Part shown: one piece after another, positions 61,771 through 64,000 of the stretch
Layout of the letters: the number at the start of each line of letters is the position of its first letter
How positions within the stretch are numbered: the first letter of the stretch is position 1
Assembly (NCBI RefSeq): GCF_014191605.1
Contig: NZ_JACHWU010000002.1
Span: forward strand, 124,001-188,000
Direction: 5' to 3'
Source of the DNA: Prauserella isguenensis
Lineage (GTDB): Bacteria > Actinomycetota > Actinomycetes > Mycobacteriales > Pseudonocardiaceae
Length of the DNA: 64,000 bases
Translations under genes and position numbers: made by a program
The notes under the pieces: model-generated
Seen by the model: the letters and a program-made list of their open reading frames with translations, nothing else
What the model was told of the DNA's origin: nothing
The model's database searches: none

Positions 61771-61907
61771 CGAGGCGGGCGCGGCTGTGAGCGAGGTCTC
61801 GACCAGTGGCGGCGTCGCAGGCAGGCGCCGGTCCACGGGGCGCGCCGCGGGCCGGGCCGTGCCGCCGGTCCGCGCGGCCGTGGCGCGCACGGGGATAGGG
61901 TGGCCGT

Positions 61908-62110
61908 GCTGGTGGTTCACCCGCGTACGGCCCGACCGGGCCTGCGGGTGAGGCAAGAGGGAACCCGGTGCGAATCCGGGACTGCCCCGCAGCGGTGAGC
62001 GGGAACGACCGCCGTCAACGGCACTGGACGCGACGAGTCCGGGAAGCGACGGCCAGTAGGCCCCCGGCCACGGCCGGGATCGCCCGCGAGTCCGAAGACC
62101 TGCCACCGGC
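61908..62110 (+). ncRNA. Cobalamin (B12) riboswitch
   Basis: Conserved aptamer segments in order: AAGAGGGAACCCGGTGCGAA, TCCGGGACTGCCCCGCAGCG, then GAGTCCGAAGACCTGCC at the 3' side. The closing stem GCTGGTGG (61908-61915) pairs with CCACCGGC (62103-62110). Downstream, CGCGCAC/GTGCGCG can form another hairpin, and a CTCCCTCG stretch near 62200 could pair with the GAGGAG ribosome site of the next gene, so translation control is likely. Confidence 0.95.
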
Positions 62111-62250
62111 GCGCGCACCACACCGGTGTGCGCGGGTTCCGAGGTCTCGCGGGTGGACCGGGCGGATGGGCCGGGCGTGTGCCCGGCCGGACTGCGCAGC
62201 TCCCTCGAGACCGTCGGCGCCCGTGTCGACGAGCTCGCGAGGAGAGAGCA

Positions 62251-64000
62251 TTGACCGGCAGCATCGGTTCCACCGTCCTGGGATATCCCCGCATCGGCCC
62301 CGGCAGGCAGTTGCCGCGGGCACTCGAACGCTACTGGACCCACCGCACCGACGAGTCCGAACTCCGCGCCGTCGCCCGGGAACTGCGGGCCCGCACGTGG
62401 CGGGAGTTGTCCGCCGCGGGGCTCGACTCCGTGCCGGGCGGCACGTTCTCGTACTACGACCACGTGCTCGACACCGCCGTGATGGCGGGCGCAGTGCCGG
62501 ACCGGTTCCGCGCACTGGGACTCGGCCCGCTGGACACCTACTTCGCCATGGCAAGGGGGACCGATGCGGCGGCGCCGTTGGGCACGGCGCCCTGGTTCGG
62601 CACGCAGTACCACCACGTCGTGCCGGAGATCGGCCCCGACACCCCGCTCACCGTCGCCGATCTCACGCCGGTGCGGGACTTTCTCGAAGCGCTGCGGCTG
62701 GGCGTGACCACCCGGCCGGTGCTGCTCGGGCCTGTGACGTTCCTGCTGTCGTGTGTCCCGGCGCCGGGTTCGCCCGCGGGCTTCCGGCCCCTGGATCGGC
62801 TCGGCGACCTGCTCGGCGTGTACGCCGTGCTGCTCCGCGACTTGGACGCCGCGGGAGCCGAGTGGGTGCAGCTCGACGAACCCGCGTTCGCCACCGACCG
62901 CACCGGGGCCGAGCGTGACGCGCTGCGCGACGCCTACGACGTTCTGGCCGCGCGGGCACGTAGACCGGCACTGCTGGCGGCCGTGCCGTACGGCGATCCC
63001 CGCGAGGCACTCGGCGCACTGGCCGCCACCCCGGTGGAGGGCATCGCGGTCGATCTCGTCTCGGAGACGTCCACGGCGAACACCGTCGTCGGCACGCCGG
63101 GACTGCTGGACAAGACCCTCGTGGCGGGCCTGGTCGACGGGCGCAACGTGTGGCGCACCGACCTCGACACGGCGTTGGTCACGGCGGCCACCCTGCTCGG
63201 GTCGGCACGGGAGGTGGCGGTGAGCACGTCCTGCTCGCTGCTGCACGTGCCCTACGACGTGGACCGGGAGCCGGCACTGGACCCGCAGATCGTGCCGTCG
63301 CTCGCGTTCGCCCGGCAGAAGGTGAGGGAGGTCGTGACCCTCGGTGCGGCCCTGCGCCGCGGTCCGGACGTCGTGGCACGCGAGCTGACCCGCGGGCGCG
63401 AGGTGCTCGCCGCGCGCCGGGCGTCACCGCCGACCGATCGCGGCGTGCGGGCCCGGTTGGCGACACTGCGGCCCGCGCATCTGCGGCGGCCCCCGTACGG
63501 CACCCGGCGGGCGGCACAGGATCGAACCAGCCGGTCGCCGGAGGAACCGATCGACCCGTTGCTCGGTGCGGTCGACGCGTGGGCGCGCACGGGCATGATC
63601 GGCGACGACGAACACTATCGCGAGCGGATGCGCGCGGGTGTGCAGGACGTCGTGCGCCTGCAGGAGGCGCTCGGTCCGCAGGCCGCGGAGCTCGCCGCGC
63701 CGTCGGTGGCCGAGCGGCGCCACGACGGACTCGTGCGCTTCGTCGCGGGCCTGCTGGAGGGCATGGCATCGACCCGCCACGGCTGGGTGCAGCACAGCGG
63801 CGCCCACTGCGTTCGGCCGCCGATCGTGGTGGGGGACGTGAGCAGGCCCGCCCCGATGACGGTCGAGTGGGTCACCGGCGCCCAGCGGCTCACCACGGCC
63901 GCTGTGAAGGCCGTACTGCCCGGGCCTGCGGCGATGCTCGCGTGCGCGTTTGTGCGCGACGACGTCTCGGTGGTCGACACGGCGGCGCAACTGGCGCTCG
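62251..64000 (+). CDS. MetE-like protein (cobalamin-independent methionine synthase family), 3' truncated by window
   Basis: 583 codons visible from a TTG start with GAGGAGAG upstream; MetE is about 755 residues, so the C-terminal part is outside. Alignable to actinobacterial MetE: LGYPRIGPGRQLPRALERYW, PWFGTQYHHVVPEIGPDT, LLGPVTFL, WVQLDEPAF, SCSLLHVPYDV, GWVQHSGAHCVRPPIVVGD, SRPAPMTVEW. But the TTTIGSFPQ and HGEAERNDMV motifs, part of the homocysteine site in MetE, are missing: near residues 413-425 the text is PYGTRRAAQDRTSRSPEEP, and near 480 it is APSVAERRHDGLV. No frameshift restores them. So it is a diverged MetE paralogue; the zinc-ligand region is not visible. Confidence 0.85.
   Translation, partial: MTGSIGSTVLGYPRIGPGRQLPRALERYWTHRTDESELRAVARELRARTWRELSAAGLDSVPGGTFSYYDHVLDTAVMAGAVPDRFRALGLGPLDTYFAMARGTDAAAPLGTAPWFGTQYHHVVPEIGPDTPLTVADLTPVRDFLEALRLGVTTRPVLLGPVTFLLSCVPAPGSPAGFRPLDRLGDLLGVYAVLLRDLDAAGAEWVQLDEPAFATDRTGAERDALRDAYDVLAARARRPALLAAVPYGDPREALGALAATPVEGIAVDLVSETSTANTVVGTPGLLDKTLVAGLVDGRNVWRTDLDTALVTAATLLGSAREVAVSTSCSLLHVPYDVDREPALDPQIVPSLAFARQKVREVVTLGAALRRGPDVVARELTRGREVLAARRASPPTDRGVRARLATLRPAHLRRPPYGTRRAAQDRTSRSPEEPIDPLLGAVDAWARTGMIGDDEHYRERMRAGVQDVVRLQEALGPQAAELAAPSVAERRHDGLVRFVAGLLEGMASTRHGWVQHSGAHCVRPPIVVGDVSRPAPMTVEWVTGAQRLTTAAVKAVLPGPAAMLACAFVRDDVSVVDTAAQLAL

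Follow-up and report, generated by a model that had tools for sequence, protein, structure and literature searches.

The window analyzed here, a 64,000-nucleotide stretch of Prauserella isguenensis DNA (contig NZ_JACHWU010000002.1, positions 124,001 to 188,000), ends within a degenerate metE gene, a relative of the genes for the B12 (cobalamin)-independent methionine synthase, which lies behind a cobalamin riboswitch. Based on the sequence comparisons, it was considered likely that the product is a conserved pseudo-MetE, in which the catalytic machinery is gone and the scaffold, above all the N-terminal barrel, is held by selection for a non-catalytic role. Seven Prauserella genomes, labelled G000 to G006, were compared, G000 being the source of the window (G000:C2:124001-188000). 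The degenerate form was found in four of them (G000, G001, G003 and G005), the proteins being 80-92% identical to that of the window, and the three congeners held it at the same locus. The closest named relative was found in Prauserella halophila DSM 44617, on a contig that carries the degenerate gene (L013). A preliminary description of this DNA, made from the letters alone, had argued against neutral decay and named a pseudo-enzyme as one possibility, and both were supported by the three congeneric orthologues (G001, G003 and G005) with the same motif losses and by ratios of nonsynonymous to synonymous substitution rates (dN/dS) far below 1.

Loss of the active site

The reading frame runs from a TTG codon at 62251 to a TAG codon ending at G000:C2:188353 (equivalent to 64353 of the window), with 353 bases beyond the window edge; it codes for 700 amino acids and is open throughout. 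The roles of the residues were taken from the available part of the report on the Thermotoga maritima MetE structure (PMC539065) and transferred by alignment; the T. maritima numbering is used for them. The features of the coding sequence were as follows:

62251..64000, + strand, part of the degenerate MetE coding sequence within the window (TTG start; Pfam PF08267 and partial PF01717 matches)
62251..63240, + strand, N-terminal barrel (residues 1-330; out of 80 sites invariant in canonical MetE, 70 retained and 8 lost near substrate-facing stretches)
62581..62598, + strand, GTAPWF replacing canonical EMTKWF, Lys104 changed to Pro (alignment)
63529..63561, + strand, position of the lost TTTIGSFPQ strand with Ile409 and Ser411 (alignment; roles from the available part of PMC539065)
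63691..63735, + strand, LAAPSVAERRHDGLV replacing HGEPERNDMV, Glu462 and Met468 lost (alignment; roles from the available part of PMC539065)
63943..63945, + strand, Cys codon replacing Trp539, Cys or Gly in the orthologues (alignment; role from the available part of PMC539065)

According to the same part of that report, zinc is held in T. maritima MetE by His618, Cys620, Glu642 and Cys704, homocysteine is contacted by Ile409/Ser411, Glu462, Met468 and Asp577, and folate is contacted by Lys104, Trp539 and Glu583 at the pterin, Trp539 being the stacking residue, and by Arg15, Lys18, Arg493 and Arg496 at the glutamate tail (PMC539065). All four zinc ligands were gone in all four degenerate sequences: His618 was replaced by Asp or Gln, Cys620 by Gly and Glu642 by Ala, and Cys704 fell within a deletion of ~60 residues which takes away the end of the catalytic barrel and is followed by a canonical-like C-terminal end. 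Among the homocysteine contacts only Asp577 was retained; unrelated sequence occupied the position of the TTTIGSFPQ strand, and the canonical HGExERxDMV became LAAPS-xxxRRxDxLV. The folate contacts Lys18 (to Pro), Lys104 (Pro or Ser), Arg493 (His or Tyr), Trp539 (Cys or Gly) and Glu583 (Arg) were replaced as well, and only Arg15 and Arg496 were kept. Each of the eleven residues tabulated was identical in 106 of the 106 canonical MetE rows used as the reference, some of which are identical or nearly so to one another (one species from two collections, e.g., L014 and L093). The duplicates L012 and L013, the loci after L115 and open reading frames (ORFs) shorter than 600 amino acids were omitted from this comparison.

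The absence of TTTIGSFPQ and HGExERxDMV and the altered MTKWF stretch, which reads TAPWF, had been noticed in the preliminary description and were borne out by the alignment, and reading past base 64000 revealed that the zinc ligands had been lost too. Its statement that the surrounding sequence is conserved held for the most part, as the VRPPIV-GDVSR-APMTV-W stretch was almost unchanged across the four degenerate orthologues. Conservation of 97% or more among the canonical MetE was seen at 246 sites; 81 of these were lost in all four degenerate sequences, 136 were kept and 29 were mixed. The C part accounted for 73 of the lost sites, 23 of the 81 being lost through deletions, and the eight in the N-barrel (K22, E111, T113, K114, D117, N119, Y122 and K169) were mostly near the Lys18 and Lys104 stretches. 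A table of six strict regular expressions over 124 ORFs flagged many normal MetE through harmless variants; it was used only for sequences without all six motifs, and the residue counts rest on the 106-row alignment. All six motifs were absent from L003-L006, L011, the duplicates L012 and L013, and two fragments (L140 and L141).

The Meth_synt_1 family (PF08267) matched residues 7-315 with 313.8 bits, thus the N-barrel was present, and Meth_synt_2 (PF01717) was matched only over profile positions 26-238 of 324, compared with 1-323 in the intact copy of G006. The NF003556 equivalog cut-off was exceeded (618.5 vs 541), when that of TIGR01371 was not (550.4 vs 929.95; the G006 copy passed at 1024.8 bits). 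An AlphaFold model of the degenerate protein was obtained with a mean predicted local distance difference test score (pLDDT) of 87.7 and a predicted template-modelling score of 0.89, the confidence being low at residues 448-451, 481-484 and 670-700. Its best structural match was Candida albicans MetE (4l6o; TM-score 0.86 on the query, Z 57.4, root-mean-square deviation 2.4 Å over 641 residues). Judging from the alignment and the model, the regions of C-barrel strands 1, 2, 7 and 8 appeared to be replaced or deleted.

Purifying selection after the losses

Since the losses are common to four species, the differences among the copies arose after them. The dN/dS values were estimated by the NG86 method throughout; YN00, where computed, gave lower values for canonical and degenerate pairs alike. 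For the G000-G001 pair, dN/dS was 0.17 (95% interval 0.12-0.23) over the gene and 0.12 (0.06-0.20) in the N-barrel, and for G005-G003 the values were 0.20 (0.15-0.26) and 0.13 (0.08-0.21), respectively. The three canonical pairs of a second metE locus (locus B, see below) gave 0.14-0.17. In five of the six degenerate pairs the N-barrel value was 0.12-0.21, against 0.18-0.20 in the canonical pairs.

Neutral evolution was simulated with change rates taken from four-fold sites, 500 runs per pair. The amino acid difference between G000 and G001 was 7.9%, when the neutral mean was 48% and the minimum of 500 runs 42.9%; at the second codon position the change was 3.6% against a neutral mean of 31% and a minimum of 26.5%. 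The same picture was obtained for G005-G003. A single indel, of 3 bp, separated G000 from G001 in 2,100 aligned coding bases, and seven, none a multiple of 3, were counted in 349 leader bases, some of them possibly end effects of the pairwise alignment. Substitutions were fewer in the leader (2.3%) than in the coding sequence (8.5%), as is expected of a structured RNA. It was concluded from these comparisons that the protein is under purifying selection following the loss of its active site.

Distribution among the Prauserella genomes

The flanks of the metE locus were common to six of the seven genomes. In G006 this locus held an intact metE (L007) with the homocysteine and zinc motifs, 60% identical to the window gene and sharing its flanks and riboswitch, the differences being the retained motifs and the passed TIGR01371 cut-off. 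The G004 copy was degenerate in another way, with ~45 residues deleted between the homocysteine-motif positions, a full C-terminus and H/R/D/H at the zinc positions. An intact second metE was found at locus B in G002, G003 and G004; beyond the riboswitch, the flank of locus B had no counterpart in G000, G001, G005 and G006. No intact MetE was found in G000, G001 and G005, all of which hold the degenerate gene. Besides the degenerate gene, no full-length MetE homologue was found in G000, and the shared location makes this gene the orthologue of the intact G006 metE; hence it is not a paralogue in this genome, as the preliminary description had named it, and the canonical full-length copy whose existence had been left open there was not found elsewhere in G000.

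Full-length metH and cobI/cbiL were present in all seven genomes. Full-length MetH is the most likely source of methionine in G000, therefore methionine synthesis need not depend on the degenerate gene. Two stand-alone Meth_synt_2 proteins with the H-x-C motif and a late Cys were also encoded in G000 (L168, G000:C3:636419-637390; L169, G000:C3:201882-202490); judging from these motifs, both are possible core methionine synthases. Relatives of L168 occurred in 7/7 genomes.

In 390 genomes of the family, a search was made with a segment of 102 residues that is peculiar to the degenerate form, at most 12 first-look candidates being scored per genome. The four Prauserella genomes with this form gave 222, 182, 135 and 128 bits and no other genome more than 61, which suggests that the degenerate form is confined to the genus Prauserella, as far as this search sees. 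Broken metE remains with internal stops were observed in other genera of the family (G067:C1:3820656-3821309 and G033:C1:4657447-4658590), unlike the open and constrained window gene. The split metE of G172, G195 and G055 were dropped as independent breaks, given the masked N runs near the break in G172 and G195 and an ambiguous base beside the frame change in G055.

Ribonucleotide reductase genes were located beside the intact metE in G002 (L135:3900-11000, G002:C4), G004 (G004:C22) and G003 (G003:C6, where metE comes first). Each behind its own cobalamin riboswitch, the reductase and metE together look like a B12-independence cassette. The cassette riboswitches were identified by Rfam in G003 (L010:4681-4898 and 1137-1353); in G002, the riboswitch ahead of the reductase was recognized solely from DNA similarity. 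The large subunit was assigned by PF02867, which matched twice in each of G002, G003 and G004 and once in each of the other four genomes; the small subunit is presumably encoded there as well, judging by the motifs we associate with it.

The degenerate clade was supported by 100/100 in the protein tree, with a stem of 0.44 changes per site and tips of 0.04-0.08. The G004 copy grouped with this four-species clade (100/99), and a G004+G006 clade was rejected (p value of the approximately unbiased test 0.002), with long branches in play; on the N-barrel only, the support was just 86/69, and the metH tree paired G004 with G006. The dN/dS of the G004 copy against G006 (0.38; N-barrel 0.32) covers periods of activity as well as of degeneration and does not discriminate. 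The G004 copy may share a first step with the four-species clade or may have decayed on its own. The tree of the degenerate gene paired G005 with G003, when the metH tree paired it with G000/G001, perhaps owing to recombination. A likely history is that metE became redundant at this locus, lost its active site and a C-terminal block during a period of rapid change, and was afterwards constrained again.

Cobalamin riboswitch and leader

The leader of the gene contained two features:

61896..62121, + strand, cobalamin riboswitch aptamer RF00174, full model 1-189 (81.1 bits vs gathering cut-off 31.5)
62239..62248, + strand, Shine-Dalgarno-like GAGGAGAGAG, identical in the five degenerate leaders aligned, putative ribosome-binding role

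The AGGAG of the latter (62240-62244) lies six bases ahead of the TTG start. The riboswitch named in the preliminary description was thus confirmed; the control exerted by it is proposed by analogy. Ahead of the metE copy, RF00174 also scored above the cut-off at 11 other loci, seven of which hold a canonical gene and four a degenerate one; all five degenerate copies, that of G004 included, are therefore preceded by it. When the window leader was aligned with ten others, the core blocks of the aptamer were near-identical between degenerate and canonical copies. When the final 130 bases of the leaders were folded by minimum energy, no one structure was common to them, and no on/off mechanism is claimed.

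The riboswitch of mycobacterial metE, likewise situated in front of the gene, represses when B12 is present, in Mycobacterium smegmatis probably mainly at translation, according to the available part of the report (PMC8088520). By analogy with this system, the degenerate protein would be made when B12 runs short and repressed while it is plentiful.

The next long gene-like frame downstream (L002:8627-10123) has the opposite orientation, therefore the degenerate gene is probably transcribed by itself. Three more cobalamin riboswitches above the cut-off were detected in G000 (G000:C4:130753-130934, G000:C1:1033378-1033587 and G000:C3:671218-671337), and the frames downstream of them resemble, by their sequence features, genes for corrinoid or iron transport and one for a cobaltochelatase. 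The window also carries two tRNA-Leu(GAG) genes with equal Rfam scores (2279-2363 and 2913-2997), ~550 bases apart.

Comparison with known proteins

Canonical tandem-repeat MetE (EC 2.1.1.14), as in T. maritima and C. albicans, has the same two-domain architecture with a full N-barrel. The degenerate protein differs in having neither the zinc ligands, the homocysteine motifs and the pterin contacts nor the ~60 residues that include Cys704; a complete C barrel and full homocysteine and folate contact sets are missing. It is homologous to an enzyme family without the catalytic residues and is under purifying selection after their loss, as is characteristic of pseudoenzymes. The core methionine synthases MesA-MesD, or core-MetE, are MetE relatives which do not use folate and consist of the catalytic domain without the N-barrel, the zinc site being nearly always conserved, according to the available text of the two reports (PMC7005905, PMC7857596). 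The window protein is the reverse, with the N-barrel present and the zinc site absent. MesB-like proteins of Chloroflexales also have no zinc ligands, and another function was proposed for them in the part of the report available (PMC7857596). However, they are kin of the single-domain MesB, when the window protein is a two-domain MetE of Actinomycetota with lost folate contacts and a riboswitch. In a literature search for an inactive MetE or this Prauserella gene, in which subscription journals were mostly uncovered, nothing was found among the papers listed beyond these MesB-like proteins, as described in the accessible part of that paper (PMC7857596).

Weighing of the explanations

Several observations weigh against a conserved pseudo-MetE. 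The confident AlphaFold model leans on the canonical rows in its alignment, and the model built from the four degenerate sequences alone was unusable (pLDDT 31.9) and uninformative on the retention of the fold. The clade is narrow (4/390 family genomes in the segment search), and G002 has lost the gene, its two flanking pieces adjoining without metE between them. The four cross-pairs of the degenerate gene had dN/dS of 0.26-0.31, higher than the values for the canonical pairs and for metH in these genomes; metH ranged over 0.10-0.24 in all pairs and over 0.10-0.13 in these four, hence its constraint there is two to three times tighter than that on the degenerate gene. Its C part was about twice looser than that of active MetE (0.22-0.24 vs 0.11 in close pairs). 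The guanine-plus-cytosine (GC) content at the second codon position was 0.55-0.56, against 0.47-0.50 in canonical genes, and the lysines numbered 3-4 instead of 10-17; together with the long stem, this suggests a spell of relaxed constraint. The open frame alone is weak evidence in GC-rich DNA, as 93 and 120 of the 500 neutral runs for the two pairs contained no stop (means of 1.7 and 1.4 stops). Finally, Arg15, Arg496 and Asp577 are retained, therefore some ligand contact could remain.

It is unlikely that the emptied cleft has been rebuilt into a new enzyme, for a reaction that requires no zinc-thiolate chemistry and no folate. The purifying selection on the protein and the three retained residues would agree with it, as would 40 sites at which the residue common to at least 90% of canonical MetE has given way to a different one, identical in the four degenerate copies; several of these new residues are basic and occupy old cleft positions (S515H, E609R, Q641R, H643R and Y122H, which presumably face the cleft). 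However, several of the old contacts vary among the four copies (His618 D/D/Q/Q, Trp539 C/C/G/G, Arg493 H/H/Y/Y, N119 Q/R/S/P). The lost N-barrel sites were invariant among the four in 4/8 cases, compared with 270/322 of the other sites, and in the C part the contrast was slight (27/50 vs 146/223). The apparent replacement or deletion of four C-barrel strand regions also speaks against a new enzyme, and no neighbouring gene suggested a substrate. A different methyl acceptor or donor, as put forward in the preliminary description, is also unlikely, since no zinc ligand and neither homocysteine motif is left, Lys104, Trp539 and Glu583 have been replaced and the barrel end is deleted, leaving no evident methyl-transfer site. 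The retained scaffold, the erased and partly variable contacts and the altered strands would fit a non-catalytic protein better than a new methyltransferase.

A slowly decaying pseudogene, whose decay is masked because stops rarely arise at high GC, is very improbable. The few stops in the neutral runs, the long stem with its compositional drift, the loss of the gene in G002 and the broken metE of G067 and G033 could be read in its favor. Nevertheless, the change at codon position 2 (0.036 vs 0.31 under neutrality), the dN/dS of at most 0.31 in all six pairs of the clade, the sole G000-G001 coding indel being in frame, and the intact riboswitch and ribosome-binding site do not agree with decay; the codon-based comparisons speak against it for the time since the four-species split. 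Missing zinc ligands together with an absence of conserved orthologues had been regarded beforehand as the mark of a decaying gene: the ligands are indeed missing, but conserved orthologues exist.

Even less probable is a subunit that lends its N-barrel in trans to a zinc-carrying catalytic domain encoded by another gene. The stand-alone Meth_synt_2 proteins of G000 could be such partners, but relatives of L168 are also present in G006 and G002, with an intact MetE and no degenerate one, therefore the presence of L168 does not track the degenerate gene; moreover, the N-barrel itself has lost Lys18 and Lys104. A still active MetE with a zinc site displaced or formed differently, consistent with the passed NF003556 cut-off, is hardly credible given the changed or deleted ligand positions, the absence of both homocysteine motifs, the lost pterin contacts and the failure at TIGR01371.

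For the conserved pseudo-MetE, the following sequence of events is proposed. The riboswitch would repress the gene while B12 is plentiful, the protein would be made when B12 runs short, and its role would then be non-catalytic, that of a scaffold or a binder of some partner or ligand, the last being the weakest step. We give an even chance to the broader proposal that a B12-independent methionine synthase became a non-catalytic protein induced by B12 starvation, such as a sensor, scaffold or regulator, with its riboswitch retained; the control circuit of a backup enzyme would then drive a different function, also in the genomes where no active MetE was found.

As the degenerate protein passes NF003556, annotation would probably call it a methionine synthase, and a B12-independent methionine synthesis which these bacteria lack would probably be attributed to them in annotated genomes and metabolic models. 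The gene may represent a clear example from nature of an enzyme that has lost its active site and is nevertheless kept by selection, with the intact enzyme of a congener at the same locus and a likely inducing condition, low B12; other uses of the MetE scaffold thereby become testable.
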